From positions 1-31,118 of IMG/VR virus record IMGVR_UViG_3300043571_000290: a DNA stretch of 31,118 bases; one strand, written 5' to 3'. The notes beneath the pieces are model-generated. The model did no database searches. It had not been told where the DNA came from and saw nothing but the letters and a program-made list of their open reading frames with translations. The translations under genes were made by a program, and so were the position numbers. Of this stretch, positions 458 to 24,639 are shown one piece after another (the first letter of the stretch is position 1; every line of letters begins with the position of its first letter). The stretch comes from a virus.

Positions 458-472
458 TGTCCGCTTTGTGCT
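458..472 (-). promoter_or_regulatory. Candidate operator, copy 2
   Basis: This is the second exact copy of the 15-mer seen at 435-449. It overlaps the TTTGTG that could serve as the -35 element of the rightward promoter at 465-493, so a bound protein would be expected to block early transcription. Confidence 0.55.
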
Positions 473-612: not shown

Positions 613-1026
613 ATGCAAAATCAAGATCTAGCCCCTTATCTATTCGCTTTTTCCGCCCGGAAACGTGGCGCGATTGGAGCCTTTTACCCCGTAAACCGTT
701 GTCTCTCTTTGCCACAAGGCGAGCAAAACAACATGCTGGAAATCGTCTCCCGTTGCCCCGACTTGGAAATTAAAGCTATCAACCTCGTCTGTGAAATGAC
801 GAGCGGACAGGACTTCCCATGCCCGGAAGGCAATACAATTGCTTATGAATTAATAAACGGAACCGCTAACCCATGCTCTGTGGGGTTCATTCGTGAATCA
901 GACTTTGGTATCTCCTCTAAGGTCAAAGAAATGGTACTAAGCACGCATGCGCCATTCGTCAAGGCATGGAATCGCAACCAACTTGCCAGCTTCGCTGAGA
1001 AAAACTCTATACATTGGATTAGATAA
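613..1026 (+). CDS. Unrecognised early protein
   Basis: This 137-residue frame is not recognised. Its second half (from the internal ATG at 733, MLEIVSRCPDLEIK onward) has balanced, soluble-protein composition and is the more convincing part. The 733 start is preceded by AAAACAAC, resembling the A-rich leaders of neighbouring genes, so the true product may be only 98 residues. The first 40 residues are basic and aromatic-rich and could be real or read-through. As the first gene after the early promoter it is a candidate for an immediate-early host-takeover protein, but nothing in the sequence shows a function. Confidence 0.5.
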   Translation: MQNQDLAPYLFAFSARKRGAIGAFYPVNRCLSLPQGEQNNMLEIVSRCPDLEIKAINLVCEMTSGQDFPCPEGNTIAYELINGTANPCSVGFIRESDFGISSKVKEMVLSTHAPFVKAWNRNQLASFAEKNSIHWIR

Positions 1027-1059
1027 ACCAAAAAAGGGGTCGCGCATCTCACACGCGGG

Positions 1060-1076
1060 AAACAAAACAAAGCACG
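1060..1076 (+). promoter_or_regulatory. 17-nt A-rich leader element, copy 1
   Basis: AAACAAAACAAAGCACG ends exactly 8 bases before the ATG at 1085. An identical 17-mer sits at the same distance before the next gene (1354-1370). The fixed spacing suggests a role in translation start rather than chance. There is no Shine-Dalgarno in this leader. Confidence 0.5.
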
Positions 1077-1084
1077 CAACGTAT

Positions 1085-1354
1085 ATGACAATTCTAAATC
1101 AATCCCTCAATAAGCTCCGCGAGCACTTCGCGAACAGCGAGCATCATCACCACGTTTTTTCATCCGGCGAAAACTATCGTGCCCTTTTTGACATCGCTCG
1201 CGAATCACTTGGAGCGATGTTTGAGAGCCAAGAGAATCAAGCCAGACTTGCGGCTTTCATCACTGCAAACGGTGAAGAGAAAGCTGTGAATTCCATCACG
1301 AACCAAGGCAAAGCACTGATTTTGCAAGGCCTGCTTGTAATCGCAAAAGCATAA
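1085..1354 (+). CDS. Unrecognised small early protein
   Basis: Eighty-nine residues, predicted mostly helical (LNKLREHFANSEHHHH near the N-terminus, then an Ala/Leu-rich C-terminal half). No family is recognised. I chose ATG 1085 rather than the upstream ATG at 947 because the 17-nt leader element ends 8 bases before it and because the longer frame would overlap the previous gene. The C-terminal part (FITANGEEKAVNSITNQGKALIL) looks like a compact helical domain. It sits in a run of small early genes with A-rich leaders. Confidence 0.65.
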   Translation: MTILNQSLNKLREHFANSEHHHHVFSSGENYRALFDIARESLGAMFESQENQARLAAFITANGEEKAVNSITNQGKALILQGLLVIAKA

Positions 1355-1370
1355 AACAAAACAAAGCACG
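1354..1370 (+). promoter_or_regulatory. 17-nt A-rich leader element, copy 2
   Basis: This is an exact copy of the 17-mer at 1060-1076, again ending 8 bases before an ATG (1379). See the first copy for interpretation. Confidence 0.5.
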
Positions 1371-1378
1371 AACACAAT

Positions 1379-1573
1379 ATGAAACGCTATAAAATCACCT
1401 ACAGAGAATCAAAAGACTCTGAAACGCAGTCCCGCCTTATGTTCGGATTCAATTCCGAACACGCAGAGGAACGCTTTATCGATTCCATGGAGGAAGAGGG
1501 CGGAACGCAGGGCTTGCAGATCCTTTCGGTTTCGCAAATCACAATCAAAAACGGAATTGCCAAACTAGCTTAA
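1379..1573 (+). CDS. Unrecognised small early protein
   Basis: Sixty-four residues with alternating charged and hydrophobic positions, suggesting a small alpha/beta fold (MKRYKITYRESKD, later LQILSVSQITIKNG). The pattern of a first strand, a helix rich in Glu (AEERFIDSMEEEGG) and a final pair of strands is seen in many small phage proteins that bind host enzymes, but no family is recognised. The start is supported by the 17-nt leader element 8 bases upstream. Confidence 0.65.
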   Translation: MKRYKITYRESKDSETQSRLMFGFNSEHAEERFIDSMEEEGGTQGLQILSVSQITIKNGIAKLA

Positions 1574-3832: not shown

Positions 3833-3861
3833 TTGCACAAAGCGGACGAATGATTTAATAT
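3833..3861 (+). promoter_or_regulatory. Promoter with overlapping operator (copy 3)
   Basis: TTGCAC (3833-3838), a 17-base spacer and TAATAT (3856-3861) make a good sigma70-type promoter. The site TGCACAAAGCGGACG (3834-3848) covers the -35 and the first half of the spacer and matches the reverse complement of the two sites near 435 and 458. Transcription would begin only a few bases before the ATG at 3874, so the first gene is nearly leaderless. This looks like the autoregulated promoter of the repressor gene two ORFs down. Confidence 0.6.
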
Positions 3862-4096: not shown

Positions 4097-4309
4097 ATGA
4101 ACCTAGCAGCACTACTCAAAAAACACCTCGATGAAGGTCCGCACGGATCAGCAACTAAAATGGCTCGATTGATCGGCACTGATCGCCAGCGTCTTTACGA
4201 ATGGGCCAGCGGAAAAGTGAAGCCACGCAAAGAAACGGTGCCAACGATTGTGGAATACTTGCAATCGTTAAAAGCGCCGAAAAAGCAACTGGACAAAGCG
4301 GACAAATAA
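4097..4309 (+). CDS. Cro/CI-like helix-turn-helix regulator
   Basis: Seventy residues with an XRE/Cro-type DNA-binding domain: HGSATKMARLIGTDRQRLYE (residues 16-35) is the helix-turn-helix, followed by WASGKVKPRKETVPTIVEYL. Its size suits a Cro-like protein or a minimal repressor. It lies downstream of a promoter that carries the ACAAAGCGGAC site, and its own last codons (QLDKADK) contain another copy, upstream of the next gene. The simplest reading is that it binds these sites and those in the 435-472 region, setting the balance of early transcription. No large CI-like partner with a cleavable C-terminal domain was seen. Confidence 0.8.
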   Translation: MNLAALLKKHLDEGPHGSATKMARLIGTDRQRLYEWASGKVKPRKETVPTIVEYLQSLKAPKKQLDKADK

Positions 4310-12667: not shown

Positions 12668-13309
12668 CTACTTCATCCAACAGTGATCAGGCCACTTGTC
12701 AGCCAACTCAGGTTCTCGCATTGCCTCTGTAGGACACCAGCACTTCATACGAAGATCACAGCTGCAAATCTGGCACGTCTTCAACATAGGATCGCTAGGC
12801 GTATGCCGACTCGTTAAGAACTGATTGATATGCCCAACAAGGCTACGAGTTGAGCAACTCACGCAGAACTCTACAATTTTATCCGTGTTCTTTGGGCATG
12901 TCGCGCAAATAGCCGCTCTTCGATTTGCCTCTTCTTGATCCACAAGCTCGCCAGCCAAGTAAGGCTTCACGGCGGAGTTGTAAAAACGCTTCATCATCTG
13001 AAACGCTCCAATCTTCGCCTCGCTGTCAGGATCACGCTCGACACATAAGTCAGGACGATGCTGGCAAAATGCTGCCTGCATGATGAGGCCAAGATTCGCT
13101 GGAATCTCAATGCCATTTCCTTCCAGGTGCTCTTGAACGGATTTCGCTAGATCACGCCAACCATATCTGACGAACACCGTGTTTGTGGATTCAACGTGGT
13201 AAAAGAAGCCATAGGTATCACCAGTGATAACAGCCGTTGGAAATAGCTCACGCAGCTTCGCGTGGTTGAATTCCTTTGGGATTGTATTTTTGCGGATGAG
13301 TTCTTGCAT
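12668..13309 (-). CDS. Cys-rich zinc-binding phage protein, end of late operon
   Basis: Two hundred and thirteen residues from ATG 13309, or one more from an adjacent GTG at 13312; the stop of the giant gene overlaps both starts. The N-terminal half (KEFNHAKLRELFPTAVITGD, YGFFYHVESTNTVFVRYGW) is an alpha/beta domain. The C-terminal third has Cys at 135, 138, 149, 152, 179, 182, 184, 190, 192 and 210 (AAICATCPKN, FCVSCS, CQICSCDLRMKCWCP), enough for two or three zinc sites. The arrangement recalls an uncharacterised family of phage proteins with C-x2-C repeats. It might be a minor virion or late regulatory protein; position gives no more. Confidence 0.7.
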   Translation of the reverse strand: MQELIRKNTIPKEFNHAKLRELFPTAVITGDTYGFFYHVESTNTVFVRYGWRDLAKSVQEHLEGNGIEIPANLGLIMQAAFCQHRPDLCVERDPDSEAKIGAFQMMKRFYNSAVKPYLAGELVDQEEANRRAAICATCPKNTDKIVEFCVSCSTRSLVGHINQFLTSRHTPSDPMLKTCQICSCDLRMKCWCPTEAMREPELADKWPDHCWMK

Positions 13310-16300
13310 CACGTTGCTGGTTTGTAGCCCCTATAGACCTTCTTGAGCGCCCTGTCGCGCACTTCGTCAGCTTTGTCCAACAAGAATGCTCTAGCGCGTT
13401 CTGTGGGCATCTGGAGCGCACGCTGGCCGTATCGCAGAAGCATCTGCTTGTAGCCTTTACCGGTTTCAAGGCTGTAGTTGTCGGCTTCTTCCTGTGTAAG
13501 GGAGCGACGACGAGCACCCTTGCCAACCATGCGGTGTTCGGCATTAGCAGGAGTCAGCCAAATTCCACGGGAATTGAGAGCACCGAGAACCTTGTAGGCC
13601 GGATCGGTTGGTTTCACCATGAACTCGCGGCTTCCAGGATACACATTGCGTTGGATTTGTTGGCCCAAGATGTCGTAGTACTCCTTGCCTTCGTAGCGAC
13701 GATAAACAGGGATGTGCGAGGCTGTCTTCTCCCACAGTGTTTCGTATTTACGCAGATTTGGATCTTGCGCGTAGTCGATGTCCTTCAGGAATCGAGGAAC
13801 GAAGCCGCCAGCGTAGCTCGACATCACCTTGGCAAAACGCTCCATGCGCTTCTCGTTGGGGTCTTTGCTGGACAAGCTATTGCCGAATAGCTCTTGGAAC
13901 TGGGAAAGAGCAGGAATATCAGCGGCAGCAGCAGCGCCAGACATTGCGGCACTTGCCATAATTTGTGCTACGTTTTTGTCGTTCCATTGATCTGGCGAGA
14001 AGCGGATCAAGTCAGAAAGACTTCCGATAGCTGCAAGCACAGATGAAATAGGCCAGTTGGCGTAATTGAACACCTTGCCATTGATGCCGATGGTGTATTC
14101 CTTCTCGCCAGCAGCCAGCTTCTGCTGCTTCTTCTCAGGTGTGAGGTTACCCCATCCGCCGTTGATGAACCAACCGCGCTTCTCGTCATCCGGCTCGTCT
14201 GCGATGGCTTTCAGGATTTGATAGCCAGCAACGGATAGCATCACTCCAATAAGCTGATTGCGCCGAATTGAGTCGATGAATGCTTCTTTTCCACTGATGC
14301 GATTAGGATCAAATTCAGCCTCAAATGCGCGAGCGAAACCAATGCCTGGAATGAAGCTCAGACCTTGGTTGAATTTGTTGCCAGCGAAACGTGCGAAGCG
14401 AACACCGCCAAAGTTGGCTGCATTGTAAGCAGCGAACTGCATGAAGTAGGCGAATGCCAATTCAAGTCCAGAGAGAATCCTATCGCCATTCTGCGCTGAG
14501 TCATTCCATCCGCGTTGAGCTTGTTTCAGGAATCTATCAGCACCTGCTTCAGCATTGGTCACAAGCGATCTGATCGCACGATAGCCAACGCCGCCAAGTC
14601 CAGATGGATCAAGCGTCATGGCACCTTGTTGACCGAAGAAGTTGGCGTTCTCGGACACGTTGCCTAGCTTATCCAATTCCTTCATCATATCGGCCAGAGC
14701 GTAGGAATCCAAAATAGCCTTGTCGCGTGCAGACTTTGGAGGAGTATTTTTGAAGTCTTGCTGAATAATGGCGTCCTTGTAAGGCTTCAAATCAGACTTC
14801 TTCTCCATTTCAGCAATCTTAGCTGGATCGAGTCCAATCTGGCGGAATACGATGGAAAGCGAGCCTTCCTTGGTGAGTCCACTATTGAATACGTCGAGAG
14901 CAGTCAGCAAACGGCTAACTGTCCGCATAAACAAGCCTGCGCTCTTGACGAGAATCTTGTCAGACTTCGCCATTTGTTCTGCCAGCTTGTTGCTCTTACC
15001 GATATTGCCCCACTGCATGTTCTCGGTCACATCGTTCATAGATGGATCAAGAAACACTGGATCGCCGCTAACAAGGTATTGCCACGCGATGTTGGCTTGG
15101 CGACCATAAGCACTCAGCAATCGAGCGAGTGTTTTGTATGCACCAGCAAGCTCAGATGGAAGCTGCTTTGGATTGGTGAATCCAGCGATGAACACGCGAG
15201 ACAATGCCGTGGAAAGCTCGAATGCACCGCTGGCAACAGCTAAACCGATTGAGACGATAGTATTTGGACCAGACAGCACACTAGAAACCCAGAAGTCAGC
15301 GAGCATCTTTGCCACTGGAATCTTGAGTTCGCCTTGCAGCACTTCAAGTAGCTTGTAGGCCGCAACTTGGCGCTTCACAGCGTTCAATCCTTCGTCTTGA
15401 AGAACCTCGATAAGCGAATTGATCTTCTCGCGCTCTGTCTCGGTGAACTCGGATTTAATACCAAATTTCTCAGCTATGATCTTCGCGATTTCATCGTTGT
15501 CGAAGATGCCAAGGTTGATGTCCTCAACGATACGCATACGATTTGCCTGAAGAGCTTCAGCAGCTTTTTTGCTGAGATTACCCTTTGCCTCTTGCTCACG
15601 GATCAATCGCTCCTGCATGCTGTCGAGAATGCGTTTACGCTTGGTTTCCCATGCTTCAGTGAACAGTTCTGCGAGACGTGCTTTTTGCTCTGGCGTTGCG
15701 TTCTTGAGTTCTTCGTTGGCAGAGATGGCGTCAAAGATGCGCTGGCGGTATTCTTCGACTGTCTTTGCGCTTTGCGAGAGAAGCTGACGCCAAGGGATAG
15801 GCGTCCTGAGAGGAATTTCCTCGCCACGGCGCATGTTGTTGATTTCGTTGATCATTCGTTGCAGGGCTTTTGGGCCTTGCAGAATGTTGAATGCAGCCAT
15901 TGCTTCGAGATCAGTCTTTTCGCGCTCAGCAGTCTTGAATAGGCGTTCAGCCACATCAGGTGAAACATCCAATTTAGCGAGGCGTTCAGCAAACTTTGAT
16001 TTCTCAACTGGATCAGAAACTTGATCTTTGAAAGCCTTGTTAATGGAGTCACCAGACGTTGATTTGGATAGGTCTTTGGAACCTTGGCGCAACCTTTCCT
16101 CAGTAGAGTAAATAAGTCTGGATGCCTGTTTATCGGCAATCTCAACTCGGCGCTTCTCGATTTTGAATTTCTTCATTCGAGCCAAGTCGGCACGCTCTCT
16201 GGATGCGGTTAGGAATAAGCGTTCAGAAACCTCTTCACCAACCTTGAGCGCGTCCAGTCGTTCTGCGAATTGCTCAAATGATACAGGGTTTTTAACCTGA

Positions 16301-19300
16301 TCTCTAAATGCTCGAATGATGGAGTCTTTTTGCTCCTTTTTTGACATGCCTTCAGGTGGATTCTTGAATCCTTGGCGATACAATTCCTCAAAGCGATAGA
16401 CGATTTGAGATGCCTTGTTTTCAGCAATCTCAATTTCGTTGGCGATCTCTTCTGCTGTTGGCTCAATAGGTTGACCTTCTGCAACACGTTTCTCCACCGT
16501 GTCGATGATCTCCTTGCGCTTCTTGCGTTTTTTCTTCTCTGTTGGTGTATCGTTTGGTGATTCCTCGCCAAGCAACTTGCCCATAATGGAGCGAAATTCA
16601 GCCAAGTCTTTTGCCTCTGCCGCATCCGCTTCCTCATCCGACATTTGCAGAATGGCGTTAAGCTCGCTTCGCTCTGCATCTGTCATGGATGCCTTGGCAT
16701 TTGCTACCTTCATATCCTTGCGACGTTTGTAGAAAGCAAATCTACGAACCAGCATCTTTGCCCTTTCCCACAAGGTCTTATCTGCACCTTCAAACACCTG
16801 TTCACCTTCTTTGATTAATGCCCACTCATCACTGTTGACGACATCCTGAGCTATCTCATCCGCCGCCTGCTGATTGGCCTTATCAGAATCGGCATAGCTA
16901 TTCTGCGTGAAGCTAGTCGCATTCTCACTTCCGAAGTTGGAAATGAGGATGTTAGTTCTAGCCTCCTTCATCGCCCTCTCCGCCAAGTCACGAATGAACA
17001 TCCAGCTATAACGAGCTTTGTTCACAAGATAGCGTCGTTGTCCAAGGTGTTGACCTTTCTTGCTACCTACTCCTTGCCAGAATGCAGACAGGCGCTCGCT
17101 AAGTTTGGATAGTTGCTTCTTTCTGTCTGGAGACTTAGCCTTGCGTGCAGCGTTGTCCACACGTTGACGAACTTCAATAGTCAGAGCGTCTTGGGCCATC
17201 AAGTCTTGCTCAATGCCAATGCTTTCAAGGAACGCTGGCGAGATGACTGAGTTGGCAATATCATCAAGCGAAACGCCTTCATTCTCAAGGCTGTTGACGT
17301 ATTTGATGGCAGCATCGCTATATTCTTCAGCAGATTTGACCGTGCGGTCAATGGGCATGAAGTTTGTAAACTGAACACCTCCAAACGGAGCCTTAGCTGT
17401 GCCACTGTTGATGTCCTTAATATTCTTCGCGAACTGCTTGGTTGCAGCGTCTTCAGGATCAATCATAGATGCCCTTGCGCCAGTCTGCTGATAAGCCATC
17501 GCCAGCATCATTTCAGTCTCGTTGATACGATTCTTGAGAATATCGCCAAACTCGCCAGCTTTTGCAGGAGCGATGGCATCACGAATCTTTTGTAGCATTT
17601 TCATCACGCGCTCAATGAAGCGGCGGAATAGCGATGCTTCCGAAACCGTTTGGTGCATGTCTTGCTGAATCATCTGGCGCACAAACTCGGACATCACTAA
17701 ACTGATGTTACCCTTTGGAGATGAAAATAGCTCATCAATGTCACTTGGAGTTGCGCCTGCACCGTAAAGTTGGCGAGATGCTTGAATCGCATCAAAAAGT
17801 ATCCGTGTTGCTTTTACTGGATCATTGCTTGATGCCACAACCTTTCTCATGTCTTCCAACATGGATTTGTCGCTGTTGGTAGCAAATTCAGTAAACGGCT
17901 CACGCCTTCCGCTTTTGATCCACGCCTCACGCTGAACGGCAAGATCAGCCGCATGAATCAATTCCTCAACCAGTGCATTGCCAATAGCTTCAATAGCTCC
18001 GTCTTCATCTAGGCCGAAGCTAGTTCCAGCCACCCTTTTACCAAGTTGTGTGGCATTGATGAGGATGGTTGTGGCCCCATTTCCATCCGCCATAACAGCC
18101 AGTCCACCTCCGATGTCGTTAGAAACTTCCTGAACTCTTGCTCCAATTCTGGACGCAATTTGAGCATAATCGGCAAAAGAGTAGCCACCACTTGCCATTC
18201 CCATGTCAGGTCTGGCCCCGGCTTTCCCTTCGCGATTTCCCCCTCTTCCTGCAATTGCCTCACGATTTCTAGAAACTTCTGATTCGACTCTTTGTGCTTG
18301 TGGTATGACTCCCTGTACTCCTTCTGGAAGGCCATCGAAGAGTGGTGTCCCGCTATCAGTCTGTCCAGCCCGGCCAACTCCAGAACCTTGTCGTAAACCT
18401 CCACCAAGTCCGGCCTTTTTGCCGGTGTAATTATCCATATTGGCTTCACCAGAGCGGTCCAATTGAATTGGTAAAGGGACTCTCCCTCCATTTGATATAA
18501 AATTCCTGAGTTGAGTAAGTACTGTATCATATAATTCTTGGTTGATTTCTCCAGATGGAGCCGGATTCGCAGCAGACATACCACGAAGCATGGAAATGAC
18601 ATCATCCTTAGTCATGTCGGTAGGCGGCATAACGATGACAGAACCAGCGCGTTCGCCTTCGGTGGTGAAGGTGTTGATGTTGCCGCGAATGTCTTTTCCA
18701 GTGTCGAAACGCTGTGAGAGTGGAACACCAGTAAATGCGTCGGCTGACTTTATTTGTCTTGGGTCTTTAACAAAATATTCATTGTGCGGAGGTGTCCACT
18801 TTGGACTTTCGCGTTTCCATGGGGAAGGAATCTCGGTAACTTGTGGATTTTTTAGATAAACACGAACGTCTCTTTTACCTCTACTGCTGTAAAACTTATC
18901 TGAGAAATACATGCCAGCACCAAACCTACCCTTGGTGGTTGGACGGAACTCTGTGAAATCTGCGTCAGTGGCGTGGCTGACTGGCCCAACATTAAAGCCA
19001 GCAGCTTTCGCCAACTTATCTACCAAAGCCTGTGCCTCCGCAGTCTCCGCTTCCGTGATGGTGCCAGCGTTGAACTTGGCCTCAAGTTCGGCATGTCTAG
19101 CCTCTTCTTCTGAAGTATAGGATGGAGCAACCTCACCCTCAATCAGCAGCGCCCCACTGTCCTCATACAGCCCTTGCAAGATACGGCTGAACTCGGTTTC
19201 TGTCAGATCAGGCATCGACTGCTTCACGATGCTGAAAAGCTCGTCTAGCGGCACCGATGGGCCATTTGTCTTCGGAGCAATATCATATGCAGCACGAATG

Positions 19301-22300
19301 GTAGAGCGCACTTCCTTGTCGCGTTCGTCGTAGTCAGTATTTCGAGCTACTTCAGCGCCACTGTTGAATGCGGCATCGTTGGGTGAGTCGTAGGTGACAA
19401 CAGAGGCTTGAGTTCCACTGCCACCAAACATCATAATCGCATCTTCCTTGGCGATGTTCTCGCTGGAGTATGGAGCGATGATTTTGCGTTGTTCAGGTGT
19501 CAGTTTTTGACGGGATTGGACATCGCGGGCTTCGATTTCGCCTGCAAGCAAACGATACAGCATGTCCAATCCTTCGTTTCGCTTATTTAAGACCCAAGAT
19601 CCACCGAGCTTCGTATCAACAACATTTATCGCAGAAAGGAGAGACGATCGTGTTGAATCCCGGTCAATGTTAAGGTTCTTTTTTTGATACTCCCATATAG
19701 AGTTAATCGAATCCTGAATTTTCGATATTGAGTCCTCAATGGATTTGATTGTTTTTTGATTCGGGCCACCAAAACCAATGAAAGATTTTTTGGATCGCTC
19801 TTGCTCTAGTGCAGTAACTAGGCCAGCTATTTCCGCTTTATATTTTTTAATGCCTCGGTAGGCATCTTTAAACTTAGCTGCATCTAAGATGTCAGCTTTT
19901 GTAATTAAGTTATCAGGAGTTCCCCCAATAGAGAAGCCTTCTTTCTTTTGAATAAAGTGCTGTAATTCATGAAGTATTGTCGATGTTGATTCATCACTAA
20001 TTTGACCGTTTTTTCCAATCGCAACCGTTGCGGTAATGACATCGTTTCCATTAATTGTTCGGTAAGAACCTTGAACCACATTTCCGGCTATTGGGAAAAA
20101 TGAAATATTTGCAGCATCAGGATATGCCGCAAAAAGATCATCGTGACGATATACATCCGACAGTTTTAGTACCTTGCCGGAATTAATTCGATCTAATATA
20201 GAAGATACCGTCAATTGACTGAAAGCCGGACCACCATATATCTTCGTGGCTTTGTCCACAAAACTATTCACCTCTTCAAAAGAAGCCACCTCATCCGGAA
20301 CTTCCCATCGCATCTTACCATCGTATTCGCCAGGAAACCATCCAGTGACGGCGCGAATCTCTTCGCTCGTCTTGCCTGCTGCGGCCATCACCTTTGCAGT
20401 GTCCAACGAGTCGCGCATGAACTGACGACGTTCTTCGGGAAGATTTTCAATGGAGGTTTCGCCTGCGTAACTCATCCGCACGCCGCCACCATTCACCAGC
20501 ATGTCAGCATTAGCCTTCTCCGAGTTTTTCAAGCTATTGCGAATCAGGCGGAAAACGTCTTTGTAGTCCTTCAAGGTAGGCTCGCTCGTCTTACCCGTGA
20601 TCTTCTGCCAGATGCCACGCAGGAATTGCATGAACTCTGCCAAAATGCCATCACGCGGGATTTCAACCATCGAGTCGAAGTCGCGAGTCATCGCTTCTTC
20701 AATGATGCTGAAGTAGCTAATCTGATTCGTGCGCCAGTCTGCATACTCGCTGTAGGACTCAGCAAGCGAATCAAGCTCCTGTGGAGAGTACATCCGGCGC
20801 AAGAACGAGAAGATCTGCATCTTCTCCTTCATCGACAAGAAGAACATACCCTTGTGGATGTTCTCATGAAGAATGACGCGACGAACTGCCGCTACTTCCG
20901 GCGTAGTTCCTTGAAGATTGGCTAGCTTGCGATCAAGGTCGGATACACCTACGTTGTCAGTGAAAACAATCGGCTGTCCATTTTCCGACATGCCTTCGAT
21001 TTTTGAGTTGGCGCTTACTGCTGCCCAAGTCTCAGGATAACGAACGCGATTAGCAGGATCAGCAAGGAAATCCTTTGAGGTGCCAATCCAGGTGAAGAGC
21101 ACATTTGGAATCTCGCCAGAACGATTGAGAATCGCGACAGCTTGATTGGCATCGGTTGGATTGACGGTGCCTTGAACGACGTTCGTCCGCGTTTTCTGAA
21201 TGAGCGAGTTGAGCGTTTTGAGTCTTAACTCATCGCTCTTCCTTTGTGCTTCTTCTGCTTTGGCTTGCTCCTTCTCGTCACGCTCGATTTCCTTAGCGAG
21301 CTTGGCATCGGCTGCATCACGCTTAGCTTGAGCTTCTGACGCTTCCTTATCAGCCTTGAGATAGGCTTGAACAATCGGACGAGAGCCAACGAGTTTGGGG
21401 AATGCAGCACGAAGCACATCCATGTCTTTGCCACCGCTAGCGAAGTAGGCTTTTGCAGCAGCGATCTTTTCTGGACTCCATTGCCTTTTGCTCTCGGTCA
21501 AATCCTCTTCCAAGAACGCCATTGCGGCATCTGCAATGTCCGCTTTTTCATTTGACTCTATGGCAGTTGTAGCAGATTCTTGCTCAACAGCAGGGATCGA
21601 CCCCTCTGCTGGTTGTTGAACAACACTGGCTACCGCCGCTTCCTTAGCCAAGGGAGCGGCGGTTTCTGTTGGTGTGGCTACCGTTGTGGTTTGGGGAAGT
21701 TGTCCAGTGGATGGTATAGATGGAAGGCTTCTGACAAAAGTTTGACCGCTTGCCCAACCTTTATACCAAGCATCATCCCATTTTTGATCTTTTGGCGATC
21801 TATTTTGCATCCTAGCCGGTGGAAGCTCACCTTGTTTTTCGGTAGCAGCTTGAAAACCGCGTGCAAAAGCACTCTCTTCCGTTTTGGTTTTGAATGAAAC
21901 TGCTGGTTTTTTAGTCGATGCCGTTGGTGCTCTTAGTAGCTCCTGAATCCTTCCCTGTACTTGCTCTTGAGTGACCGGCTTCGTCACATCCCGCTCCATG
22001 GCGCTGCCTCCCGGCATGACCTTGCCTTCGGTAGCGGTCGTCGGCGTCCCTTGTGGGGTAATTGGTTGGGCTGCTTGCCCCGTCATCTTCTGGACAAACT
22101 CGTTGGTGGAAGGGGCGACAGTTTGCGTTCCTGCGTTGATCGCAGCAGCTTGAGCAAGCATCTCTTGAGCCTGTGGCGCTAGGGCTGGCTTACGACCACT
22201 TGTTGGCTTTAAAACAGGTGCCTCACCCACCCCTGCACCTGCTTCCGCAGTCGGGGGCGGCACTGGCATGCCGCCGCCTTGCGTTTTGCCAGCGTTGTCC

Positions 22301-24639
22301 TGTGCCTGCGCCGCTTCCGCATGCACATACACATCCCCCTGCTTGGCATACTTTGCGGGAATACCTCGGCGCTTAATATTGCCATCGGGGCCGATGGCAT
22401 TGGTTGCGGGATATTGTGCCCAGCGCTCCATGGCCACGGCGTTCACCGGACGAGCGGACAGAATGGCCAGGGTCACGGCTTCGTCTTGGGCACGCACGGC
22501 ACGAGTGGCGAGTGGCCCACTGCCAGCCTTGGCACCCGTGAGGGTCATCATGGCCAGCTCGGCTGCACCGCGATCTTGCGCCGCCATCGCTGCATCCAGC
22601 CGCGCCTGTGCGTTGGTCACGTCTTGTGCTTGGCCATAGCTTTGCAGTTGTGCTGGCGTCAGCAGCTCAGGCACGACGGGCTGCGCATCAGTCTGCGCAT
22701 CCGTCTGCGTAGGCGTGTCAACTTGGGGCGTGGGGGGTGGGGGTAAAGTCTCAAGTTCTGGTGTCAGCAACTCATTGGGCGGTGCTGCCACGGGCTGTTC
22801 CGCCACCATTGCGCCCGTCCCTGCACCTGCTTCCGCAGTCGGGGGCGGCACTGGAGAAGGTGTTTTTGAGCCACCCTGCAATCTAAGGATAGCCTCAAGT
22901 GGTGTTTCGTTTGGGTCTGATCCTAGCGGTGGAACCATTCTTCTCTCTTGGGCATTCCAAGTCCAACCAGCATTGATCAACGTCTTTATCGAGGTGGCAA
23001 TGTTTGTTTCTGACCAATCGCCAATAGCGGCAGTTGCTTCTTCATCAGTCATTCCTTGTCTAGCCGACATGATTTGAGGAGCAACTTCATCAAAGACGGT
23101 AGGCTGATATGGCGAACCATCGTTATTGTGTGTTCTTCCGCGCTTCCGCATATTGCCATATTTTTCATTCCAAGCATCTCTTGCTGACGTGTCTCTGCCA
23201 TTTCTGGCTGGCATCGGTTCAACTGAAGATTCCGCCATAGGCGGTAGATTTGGAGATGGCGAATCTGAGATTGGTGTTTCTACGGTAGGAACAACAGTTG
23301 GAACTGGCAATCCAGCAGGCGCTTGGAGTTCTGCGGCAGCTTGAGCTTGGGCAGCTTGTTCCTGGGCCAGCATTTGAGCAGCTTTATCAGCAGCGCCTTC
23401 AGCTTGAGTCTTGAGCAGATTTTCATTAAGCTCCACGAAGGCGGTAGTTGAGCTTGAGACATCAGGAGATGTTTCGTTGGCTTTTACGACTAGCTCTTTG
23501 GGGATTATTTGGCTTGGAGGCTCTGGCGCTGGTGGCGGAATAACCGCTGTTTTCCCCTGTGGATCAACCACTGTGGTTCCGCCAGCATTCATGTTGACGA
23601 GCTTTTCGTCGTCTGTCTGATCTGGAACCACATCAACAGCATCCACATTATCTTCCGCGACGAACGCTTTTTGGATGTTAGTCTGCCTCTCTGGAGGTGT
23701 TCGGCCAAGTTTGTTGATCGCGCCAAACATTGCGCCACCAACGCCCTCCCAAAGAGCAGCTTCACCAACACCCTCAAACAAATCTGGGGTTTCAACACCA
23801 GTGGGGGCGGTAAGCTGAGTTGAGAGATTACTGAGAACTTGCGTGGAACCACCTTCAGCAGCTTCTTGGGCTGCGCTCATGCGGATGCCTGGAATTACCC
23901 TGCCAGCAGCATCTTCAACACCTCCAAGCAAGCGACGGGCGGCAGACGTTTCAAGCGCAGAGCCGAATGGAAGCATTTCTGGGGCAAGCTCAGATATGCC
24001 ACCACCAAGAAGATTCAAATACCCTTCAGCGCCAGTGATGCCAAGACGCTCATTTTCGGCAGCTTTAGCAGCAGCGCCTTGAGCAAACCCCGTGCCGTAT
24101 AGGGCAGATTTAGCGCCAGCTTGAATGGCCTGATTTGTGAGAGCTTGCCTAGCAGCGGCAGAACCGGCAGCGGCGGCACGTTCAGCGCCTAGAGCTTTAC
24201 CAGCAAGTCCACCAACGCCACTTGTGCCGATGATGCTAGCCACGTTGCCAGCTACATTTGCCACCTTGGCAGGAATGCCTTGCTCGTAAATTGGATTGAC
24301 TGGCGCGATGTATTCCAGCCCTTCGCGAGCAGATTCACCAAGATCGCTGATAGGTGTGATGCCAGTCAGAGCGCCAACGCCCTCCAATGTTCCTGGAACA
24401 ATTTCACCGAATCCACGGGCAGCACTGCCGAGTGTGGAGGTAACTATTCCTTGACCCGAATCGTCTGGAGTTTGCCAAAAGTCATCAAAAACAGCCTTTT
24501 GCGTCTGTGGCGAGAACGCTTTAAATTCAGGATCAGAGGATATTTCTCGTTCAAAAAATCCCTGCTTAACCAAAGCCTTTCCCTGTTCGGAAAGTTCTTG
24601 ATATTCTGGATCGCGTGTAATCTCGTGCCAAGTAGCCAT
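13309..24639 (-). CDS. Giant polyvalent virion protein (3776 residues)
   Basis: One uninterrupted frame of 11.3 kb. In order: a helical N-terminus (1-60); Gly/Ala-rich membrane-like segments (about 65-310); a Pro/Ala/Gln linker region (310-1050); a charged coiled coil (about 1093-1133); a metallopeptidase-like domain with HENIH (1258-1262); an LPD23-like region with TGWFPGEYDGKMRW and HELQH (1557-1561), ending AGEIEARDVQSR; an ADP-ribosyltransferase-like domain (about 1885-1975; VSHATDADFTEF, GRFGAGMYFSDKF, YLKNP, KDPRQIKSA); a degenerate third zincin-like motif, EELIH (2225-2229); two tandem coiled-coil repeats (about 2735-2917); and several membrane-compatible helices (about 3110-3580). Known polyvalent proteins of phages and conjugative elements carry such enzyme modules into the host with the DNA. 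The late position and hydrophobic ends suggest an ejected internal virion protein like T7 gp16. Confidence 0.85.
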   Translation of the reverse strand: MATWHEITRDPEYQELSEQGKALVKQGFFEREISSDPEFKAFSPQTQKAVFDDFWQTPDDSGQGIVTSTLGSAARGFGEIVPGTLEGVGALTGITPISDLGESAREGLEYIAPVNPIYEQGIPAKVANVAGNVASIIGTSGVGGLAGKALGAERAAAAGSAAARQALTNQAIQAGAKSALYGTGFAQGAAAKAAENERLGITGAEGYLNLLGGGISELAPEMLPFGSALETSAARRLLGGVEDAAGRVIPGIRMSAAQEAAEGGSTQVLSNLSTQLTAPTGVETPDLFEGVGEAALWEGVGGAMFGAINKLGRTPPERQTNIQKAFVAEDNVDAVDVVPDQTDDEKLVNMNAGGTTVVDPQGKTAVIPPPAPEPPSQIIPKELVVKANETSPDVSSSTTAFVELNENLLKTQAEGAADKAAQMLAQEQAAQAQAAAELQAPAGLPVPTVVPTVETPISDSPSPNLPPMAESSVEPMPARNGRDTSARDAWNEKYGNMRKRGRTHNNDGSPYQPTVFDEVAPQIMSARQGMTDEEATAAIGDWSETNIATSIKTLINAGWTWNAQERRMVPPLGSDPNETPLEAILRLQGGSKTPSPVPPPTAEAGAGTGAMVAEQPVAAPPNELLTPELETLPPPPTPQVDTPTQTDAQTDAQPVVPELLTPAQLQSYGQAQDVTNAQARLDAAMAAQDRGAAELAMMTLTGAKAGSGPLATRAVRAQDEAVTLAILSARPVNAVAMERWAQYPATNAIGPDGNIKRRGIPAKYAKQGDVYVHAEAAQAQDNAGKTQGGGMPVPPPTAEAGAGVGEAPVLKPTSGRKPALAPQAQEMLAQAAAINAGTQTVAPSTNEFVQKMTGQAAQPITPQGTPTTATEGKVMPGGSAMERDVTKPVTQEQVQGRIQELLRAPTASTKKPAVSFKTKTEESAFARGFQAATEKQGELPPARMQNRSPKDQKWDDAWYKGWASGQTFVRSLPSIPSTGQLPQTTTVATPTETAAPLAKEAAVASVVQQPAEGSIPAVEQESATTAIESNEKADIADAAMAFLEEDLTESKRQWSPEKIAAAKAYFASGGKDMDVLRAAFPKLVGSRPIVQAYLKADKEASEAQAKRDAADAKLAKEIERDEKEQAKAEEAQRKSDELRLKTLNSLIQKTRTNVVQGTVNPTDANQAVAILNRSGEIPNVLFTWIGTSKDFLADPANRVRYPETWAAVSANSKIEGMSENGQPIVFTDNVGVSDLDRKLANLQGTTPEVAAVRRVILHENIHKGMFFLSMKEKMQIFSFLRRMYSPQELDSLAESYSEYADWRTNQISYFSIIEEAMTRDFDSMVEIPRDGILAEFMQFLRGIWQKITGKTSEPTLKDYKDVFRLIRNSLKNSEKANADMLVNGGGVRMSYAGETSIENLPEERRQFMRDSLDTAKVMAAAGKTSEEIRAVTGWFPGEYDGKMRWEVPDEVASFEEVNSFVDKATKIYGGPAFSQLTVSSILDRINSGKVLKLSDVYRHDDLFAAYPDAANISFFPIAGNVVQGSYRTINGNDVITATVAIGKNGQISDESTSTILHELQHFIQKKEGFSIGGTPDNLITKADILDAAKFKDAYRGIKKYKAEIAGLVTALEQERSKKSFIGFGGPNQKTIKSIEDSISKIQDSINSIWEYQKKNLNIDRDSTRSSLLSAINVVDTKLGGSWVLNKRNEGLDMLYRLLAGEIEARDVQSRQKLTPEQRKIIAPYSSENIAKEDAIMMFGGSGTQASVVTYDSPNDAAFNSGAEVARNTDYDERDKEVRSTIRAAYDIAPKTNGPSVPLDELFSIVKQSMPDLTETEFSRILQGLYEDSGALLIEGEVAPSYTSEEEARHAELEAKFNAGTITEAETAEAQALVDKLAKAAGFNVGPVSHATDADFTEFRPTTKGRFGAGMYFSDKFYSSRGKRDVRVYLKNPQVTEIPSPWKRESPKWTPPHNEYFVKDPRQIKSADAFTGVPLSQRFDTGKDIRGNINTFTTEGERAGSVIVMPPTDMTKDDVISMLRGMSAANPAPSGEINQELYDTVLTQLRNFISNGGRVPLPIQLDRSGEANMDNYTGKKAGLGGGLRQGSGVGRAGQTDSGTPLFDGLPEGVQGVIPQAQRVESEVSRNREAIAGRGGNREGKAGARPDMGMASGGYSFADYAQIASRIGARVQEVSNDIGGGLAVMADGNGATTILINATQLGKRVAGTSFGLDEDGAIEAIGNALVEELIHAADLAVQREAWIKSGRREPFTEFATNSDKSMLEDMRKVVASSNDPVKATRILFDAIQASRQLYGAGATPSDIDELFSSPKGNISLVMSEFVRQMIQQDMHQTVSEASLFRRFIERVMKMLQKIRDAIAPAKAGEFGDILKNRINETEMMLAMAYQQTGARASMIDPEDAATKQFAKNIKDINSGTAKAPFGGVQFTNFMPIDRTVKSAEEYSDAAIKYVNSLENEGVSLDDIANSVISPAFLESIGIEQDLMAQDALTIEVRQRVDNAARKAKSPDRKKQLSKLSERLSAFWQGVGSKKGQHLGQRRYLVNKARYSWMFIRDLAERAMKEARTNILISNFGSENATSFTQNSYADSDKANQQAADEIAQDVVNSDEWALIKEGEQVFEGADKTLWERAKMLVRRFAFYKRRKDMKVANAKASMTDAERSELNAILQMSDEEADAAEAKDLAEFRSIMGKLLGEESPNDTPTEKKKRKKRKEIIDTVEKRVAEGQPIEPTAEEIANEIEIAENKASQIVYRFEELYRQGFKNPPEGMSKKEQKDSIIRAFRDQVKNPVSFEQFAERLDALKVGEEVSERLFLTASRERADLARMKKFKIEKRRVEIADKQASRLIYSTEERLRQGSKDLSKSTSGDSINKAFKDQVSDPVEKSKFAERLAKLDVSPDVAERLFKTAEREKTDLEAMAAFNILQGPKALQRMINEINNMRRGEEIPLRTPIPWRQLLSQSAKTVEEYRQRIFDAISANEELKNATPEQKARLAELFTEAWETKRKRILDSMQERLIREQEAKGNLSKKAAEALQANRMRIVEDINLGIFDNDEIAKIIAEKFGIKSEFTETEREKINSLIEVLQDEGLNAVKRQVAAYKLLEVLQGELKIPVAKMLADFWVSSVLSGPNTIVSIGLAVASGAFELSTALSRVFIAGFTNPKQLPSELAGAYKTLARLLSAYGRQANIAWQYLVSGDPVFLDPSMNDVTENMQWGNIGKSNKLAEQMAKSDKILVKSAGLFMRTVSRLLTALDVFNSGLTKEGSLSIVFRQIGLDPAKIAEMEKKSDLKPYKDAIIQQDFKNTPPKSARDKAILDSYALADMMKELDKLGNVSENANFFGQQGAMTLDPSGLGGVGYRAIRSLVTNAEAGADRFLKQAQRGWNDSAQNGDRILSGLELAFAYFMQFAAYNAANFGGVRFARFAGNKFNQGLSFIPGIGFARAFEAEFDPNRISGKEAFIDSIRRNQLIGVMLSVAGYQILKAIADEPDDEKRGWFINGGWGNLTPEKKQQKLAAGEKEYTIGINGKVFNYANWPISSVLAAIGSLSDLIRFSPDQWNDKNVAQIMASAAMSGAAAAADIPALSQFQELFGNSLSSKDPNEKRMERFAKVMSSYAGGFVPRFLKDIDYAQDPNLRKYETLWEKTASHIPVYRRYEGKEYYDILGQQIQRNVYPGSREFMVKPTDPAYKVLGALNSRGIWLTPANAEHRMVGKGARRRSLTQEEADNYSLETGKGYKQMLLRYGQRALQMPTERARAFLLDKADEVRDRALKKVYRGYKPAT
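15890..16430 (-). repeat. Tandem coiled-coil duplication inside the giant gene
   Basis: Residues about 2737-2833 and 2834-2917 are two copies of one unit: KASQIVYRFEELYRQG against QASRLIYSTEERLRQG, FRDQVKNPVSFEQFAERLDA against FKDQVSDPVEKSKFAERLAK, and RLFLTASRERADLARM against RLFKTAEREKTDLEAM. The copies are diverged at DNA level, so the duplication is old. Exact boundaries are approximate. Confidence 0.75.
22231..22266 (-). repeat. 36-bp direct repeat, copy A
   Basis: This 36-base stretch is identical to 22819-22854, 588 bases away, and encodes PVPPPTAEAGAG (residues 792-803) of the giant protein in the same frame. It lies in a visibly GC-rich part of the gene. Confidence 0.8.
22819..22854 (-). 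repeat. 36-bp direct repeat, copy B
   Basis: This second exact copy encodes residues 596-607. The identity at DNA level, with neighbours otherwise diverged, indicates a recent duplication or a recombination joint bounding the 588-base GC-rich insert. Confidence 0.8.

Follow-up and report, generated by a model that had tools for sequence, protein, structure and literature searches.

A compact covarying pseudoknot beside a duplicated A-rich leader in phage genomes: a candidate cis-acting RNA signal read by the host

The duplicated 17-nt leader and its surroundings

The exact 17-mer that occurs twice in the window (the whole 31,118-nt stretch of DNA analysed here, an IMG/VR record encoding RecT, exonuclease VIII-like, replication-initiator and primase-helicase genes) is an ordinary A-rich ribosome-landing leader of small phage genes carrying no Shine-Dalgarno motif, and its first copy lies directly 3' of a conserved H-type pseudoknot. 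We combine these features into one reading, to which we give an even chance: a leader, a cassette bounded by that leader, and a pseudoknot that would act in cis and be read by the host, with RNA polymerase as its likeliest reader in the manner of the nut and put signals. The features are as follows.

613..1026, + strand: upstream ORF, 137 aa, no assigned family; its TAA (1024-1026) lies 8 nt before the pseudoknot
1035..1058, + strand: H-type pseudoknot AGGGGTCGCGCATCTCACACGCGG, predicted from covariation
A1035-T1049, G1036-C1048, G1037.T1047, + strand: pseudoknot helix S1, predicted from X-X' covariation
1040-1044 with 1054-1058, + strand: pseudoknot helix S2, predicted from stem covariation
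1045-1053, + strand: pseudoknot loop CATCTCACA, near-invariant letters
1060..1076, + strand: 17-mer copy 1, AAACAAAACAAAGCACG, A-rich leader directly 3' of the pseudoknot
1085..1354, + strand: gene 1, 89 aa, no assigned family, flanked by both leader copies
1354..1370, + strand: 17-mer copy 2, AAACAAAACAAAGCACG, leader of gene 2, overlapping the gene 1 stop codon by one base
1379..1573, + strand: gene 2, 64 aa, no assigned family; in L047/L048 its relative follows the pseudoknot directly

The sequence-only reading had described an exact 17-nt element ending 8 bases before two ATGs, and both copies are confirmed, with the ATGs at 1085 and 1379 opening ORFs of 89 and 64 codons. Copy 2 starts on the final base of the gene 1 stop codon, within a 24-nt gap of a gene run. 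The window holds no third copy at up to three mismatches; shuffled controls contain 0.23 copies on average and reach two in 2 of 100 shuffles. The spacing that the same reading called fixed is 8 nt at both window copies, but the second spacing is 7 nt in the near-identical contig L005. The gene 1 and gene 2 products have no match in PHROGs, and Pfam returns a single sub-threshold match, for gene 1. Elsewhere in the window, a 3776-aa ORF (13309-24639, - strand) has relatives both among related records and in G018, which is otherwise distant.

The translational role proposed for the element is supported, as a leader, by the composition of the window's start regions and by relatives that carry the leader before different genes. 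The A fraction at positions -20 to -1 is 0.411 for 32 chosen window starts versus 0.272 for 492 internal ATGs, a difference reached in 0 of 5000 resamplings, while Shine-Dalgarno words are not clearly enriched (7/32 versus 85/492). The window starts thereby combine A enrichment with no clear Shine-Dalgarno excess, which is how we define an A-rich leader, and nearby window leaders are likewise A/C-rich in style. Kozak-like or A-rich leaders lacking Shine-Dalgarno motifs are described before Bacteroidetes starts (PMC6847099). The window leaders resemble those described there in being A-rich before starts and free of Shine-Dalgarno motifs.

Origin of the two copies

Both copies are kept in three near-identical contigs. 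In L006, a relative with 91% identity, copy 1 differs and copy 2 carries one change, gene 2 is absent, and the second leader stands before the next gene; in L047/L048 a relative of gene 2 directly follows the upstream block. With the leader standing before different genes in these relatives, gene 1 behaves as a leader-bracketed cassette, which agrees with the duplicated leader that the sequence-only reading had offered. Gene 1 would thus be a cassette bounded by two leader copies, hence the two 17-mers; the homology is demonstrated, and we infer the direction of the event. Searching related phages for the same leader, as had been suggested, gives a divided picture: three close relatives have both copies, but the letters change in L006, L050, L060 and L067. 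Together with the 7-nt spacing in L005, these changes indicate that the 17-mer is neither invariant nor strictly fixed in spacing.

Two other explanations of the pair are both very improbable. The copies could be a chance likeness of A-rich leaders, given that the 17-mer is A-rich and of low complexity and that its reversed pattern matches two window places at up to two mismatches. In first-order simulations of 32 leaders, however, the share of sets with a common k-mer falls from 4.8% for 12-mers through 1.2% for 13-mers to 0.13% for 14-mers; the simulation ran to 14-mers, and a shared 17-mer must be rarer still. Because a shared 14-mer is already this rare, and with relatives carrying the leader joined to different genes, the 17-letter identity most likely reflects descent between neighbouring small genes. 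The exact 17-mer occurs in 37 IMG/VR contigs. Three are the close relatives, in which both copies serve as leaders; the remaining 34 are unrelated and contain a single copy each, most of them repeating the same conserved context from one unrelated phage group, and a comparable leader pair is seen in none of these 34. The reversed 17-mer occurs in one contig, and we attribute the excess of 37 over 1 to that unrelated group rather than to leaders. The sequence-only reading had also raised a protein-binding role on the ground that ACAAAGC is shared with an operator core. The 7-mer is indeed common to the 17-mer and the GCACAAAGCGGACA sites, but nothing beyond it is shared, and the 17-mer is absent from the ten matches to the GCACAAAGCGGACA pattern at up to three mismatches. 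ACAAAGC is moreover frequent in the window (12 observed versus 6.4 expected), copy 2 lies in the 24-nt gap of a gene run overlapping a stop codon, and the 17-mer letters differ in relatives, so that a binding site of a DNA-binding regulator is scarcely credible. The earlier reading is supported for leader and duplication and unsupported for the operator, and it missed the pseudoknot 5' of copy 1.

The GCACAAAGCGGACA sites themselves lie at 435-448 and 458-471 (- strand) and at 3835-3848 and 4291-4304 (+ strand), two exact and two with one mismatch; they are possible operators around a divergent early region, and the site at 4291-4304 falls in the 3' end of an HTH gene (4097-4309).

Structure and covariation of the pseudoknot

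The block 5' of copy 1 is unchanged among relatives with different neighbouring genes. The special look of the 17-mer is explained by its place directly 3' of this element; the leader changes and the element does not. The element has the form X-GGGG-(stem5)-CAUC-X'-(n)-(stem5') and spans 23-28 nt, X being the base before GGGG and X' the fifth loop base.

The first pattern, GGGNCGCGCATCTNACACGCG, finds 32 stretches in IMG/VR. All 27 aligned sequences have complementary bases in the free closing pair (C-G 19, G-C 3, U-G 3, U-A 2); 26 of them come from virus contigs and one from a MAG, exact duplicates and the L107 match being set aside. Freeing four stem positions yields 59 stretches, with 32 sites in 30 new loci; 22 of these sites restore all four free pairs through six different stems, two restore three, and the remaining eight form a longer-loop class in which the stem is re-formed. 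Freeing the loop and the 5' base lists 88 stretches in 80 loci, and across the 87 sites parsed, X pairs with X' in every case (G-C 49, A-U 34, C-G 3, U-G 1), while the outer stem pair is C-G at 58, G-C at 15, A-U at 10, U-A at one and mismatched at three. X-X' pairing holds in 70 of 70 distinct sites, where independence predicts 67.5%. It holds in 122 of 122 distinct sites overall, a set for which the script required five stem pairs and did not require X-X'; the unbiased count is nevertheless the 87 sites (70 distinct), since the first scan fixed X' = T and the second fixed X = A and X' = T. Reversed-sequence controls over 2.6 Mb give no site.

In the 70 distinct rows, 99.6% of the cells of the eight-pair pseudoknot are paired, and its covariation score is 0.358 versus 0.112 for shuffled alignments (0/500), also far above slid controls. 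This model-based alignment (A6) was used because the 3' arm is misaligned in the MAFFT alignment (A5); it was fitted to the stem and not to S1, and X' is gapped in five rows. As the rest of S1 consists of a constant G-C and a constant G-U pair, X-X' is the only covariation evidence for this helix. The two interleaved helices with covariation support lead us to infer an H-type pseudoknot, S2 strongly and S1 through X-X', although the window's stretch folds with no better energy than its shuffles (z 0.16). Strand, placement and compensatory pairs, some of them G-U, point to RNA.

L166 (4083/4712), L186 (8352/8820), L192 (7637/8000) and L235 (527/721) each contain two pseudoknots that agree in stem and loop and lie a few hundred bases from one another, which suggests duplication.

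Placement behind stop codons

The element is placed with respect to the preceding gene. At 73 of the 122 sites, an ORF of 60 codons or more on the same strand stops 5-12 nt short of X, compared with 4 of 122 on the mirror strand and 179 of 6100 random positions (2.9%); the other 49 sites have no long ORF ending in this interval. The stop-to-element gap has a median of 8 nt and a standard deviation of 2.1 over 71 sites (gaps above 15 nt dropped), whereas the distance from element to start has a standard deviation of 14.7 and ranges from 5 to 66 nt. The next start codon is a median 21 nt away over 110 sites, and at several sites just 5-8 nt away, within the footprint of an initiating ribosome. 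The spacer between element and start is A-rich (0.47) or contains Shine-Dalgarno words (22/71), and in the window's clade the stop-to-element spacer is also A-rich. Stop-codon readthrough was rejected, as the next start lies in frames 0, 1 and 2 at 28, 18 and 25 of 71 sites. In L079, L153 and L165, 15-17 same-strand genes precede the element (by a crude gene call that is unreliable elsewhere), which may thus not always be promoter-proximal.

Two further arrangements are observed. In L185, L189, L193, L211, L218 and similar loci, a purine-rich hairpin-like stretch (e.g. gtcaggagagactgac) lies just 5' of the pseudoknot and takes the place of a nearby long-ORF stop. In L148, L160, L170, L179, L239 and L242, the element is flanked by a conserved gene encoding about 270 aa and by a small conserved protein beginning MKKKYDAVATVG; several different stems occur among these six, showing turnover of the stem at a constant position.

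Carriers

The pseudoknot usually occurs once or twice per record, and once in the window. A model search of 38 records matched 33 at one place each, and a further search of 14 records matched 12 at one or two places each. Five RecT-related records (G011, G012, G014, G015, G016) gave no model match, and the pseudoknot is therefore not essential. Many IMG/VR contigs also carry it, and isolated carriers comprise Stenotrophomonas phage Silvanus, Synechococcus phage S-EIVl and 13 records of Corynebacterium vitaeruminis phages including Zion, several with two places; the BLAST search of phages used short queries, which may miss forms of the element. A match in Brevundimonas phage Delta was rejected because its 3' arm is missing.

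The first pattern has two matches in 257 Gb of bacterial and archaeal genomes, and the element is nearly absent from bacterial genomes. One Elusimicrobia MAG contig carries the pseudoknot, and the L107 match lies in a genome with no model match. Model R2 finds it in one of 198 Elusimicrobiota genomes (G038, already a known carrier) and in 0 of 299 Pseudomonadota genomes, a weak zero as the set held no known positive.

At E 1e-3, Silvanus and S-EIVl have no protein in common. Among 17 records compared by BLAST at E 1e-3, no protein family is present in all, the largest is in 10, and 71 of 136 record pairs share none, a comparison that could miss small distant homologues. Proteins next to the element fall into 75 clusters from 110 downstream and 74 clusters from 104 upstream. 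The pseudoknot is phage-borne and independent of neighbouring genes.

Rfam 15 has no covariance-model match to the window element up to E 10 and none to L207, while L193 gives two matches far below the gathering score; 16 sources searched at the gathering threshold return one tRNA and nothing else. Within the portions of the literature reached by our search, no description of the element was found, and it has apparently not been described before.

Discussion

Copy 1 is the 3' tail of the predicted pseudoknot, which lies 8 nt past the preceding gene's stop codon and probably acts in cis as RNA. Its spacing would clear a ribosome parked on that codon, so that the element could sit just outside the halted ribosome and stay folded on nascent or mature mRNA. 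Its carriers share no neighbour genes and no common protein and span several bacterial phyla, which argues for the host's own machinery as the most likely reader. The likeliest candidate is the RNA polymerase elongation complex, given an element that keeps clear of ribosomes, is usually present in one or two copies per genome and is indifferent to which genes surround it; the pseudoknot may be a compact nut/put-like anti-pausing or antitermination signal.

Weighing against such a signal are the missing boxA consensus and two-hairpin put architecture, the apparently promoter-distal positions in L079, L153 and L165, and the 49 sites without a nearby upstream ORF end. A minority possibility, perhaps a little better than one in four, is that the pseudoknot regulates or stimulates translation of the gene that follows, as a ribosome recruiter, a translational operator or a very small riboswitch, with the 3' leader or Shine-Dalgarno region as the regulated site; the short median distance to the start, the starts inside the initiating footprint and the A-rich or Shine-Dalgarno-containing spacer all fit, but the distance to the start is loose where that to the stop is tight, the downstream genes fall into 75 clusters, and most records have one or two copies. 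Less probable again is an mRNA stabiliser or processing boundary, which would stop exonucleases at the upstream message's 3' end or shield a 5' end left by cleavage. Such a role suits a compact element just past a same-strand stop codon and the A-rich stop-to-element spacer of the window's clade; the usual one or two copies per record speak against it, and the near-invariant loop letters would be more than a generic block needs. Mimicry of a CRISPR repeat or RNA antitoxin was considered and rejected, the first pattern having only its two genome-collection matches, one of them (L107) in the genome with no model match; an anticodon-loop mimic was dropped because X' is variable.

Known systems resemble the pseudoknot in part. 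In the lambda record, the letters that we take to be boxA start 7 nt past the cro stop, and lambda nutR is thus likewise an untranslated RNA shortly after a same-strand stop (7 nt versus 5-12 nt at 73/122 sites). Lambda and one pseudoknot variant share the letters TCTTACAC, but the matching letters vary with X', and unlike nut the pseudoknot has no boxB hairpin and no constant boxA, X' varying with X. No N-like protein was found in common among the 17 records compared (BLAST, E 1e-3, from which distant small homologues may escape). HK022 put is a two-hairpin RNA that acts on RNA polymerase without a phage protein; the pseudoknot would by analogy do the same, although it is a single element of 23-28 nt rather than a longer two-hairpin RNA. 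The pseudoknot in T-even gene 32 mRNA lies upstream of an unstructured leader and serves gene-specific autoregulation. Both are thus phage mRNA pseudoknots before an unstructured leader, but the present element is not tied to a particular gene and matches no Rfam family.

Of the described phenomena that we found, the closest is the SAS/ESAS of cluster K mycobacteriophages, though its sequence, its copy number and its spread are all different. These are short repeats just before start codons of different downstream genes, about half with an upstream inverted-repeat feature and of unknown function; SAS is GGGATAGGAGCCC, with 11-19 copies per genome in essentially one cluster (PMC3203893). Its sequence differs from the present elements, the window having the 17-mer twice and the pseudoknot once, and the pseudoknot, usually in one or two copies, occurs in unrelated phages with spacing tied to the stop codon.

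A bolder form of the proposal, which we regard as possible but doubtful, is that a protein-independent pseudoknot of unrelated phages from several phyla directly alters how a universal host machine works (RNA polymerase or the ribosome) from a position just beyond stop codons. Were this true, the element would rank with the smallest natural RNAs of its kind while being unknown to Rfam. The element can be tested without delay in isolated carriers (Silvanus, S-EIVl, and phages of Corynebacterium such as Zion), and the conservation of an RNA among phages with no protein in common suggests that its target is a host component shared by distant bacteria.
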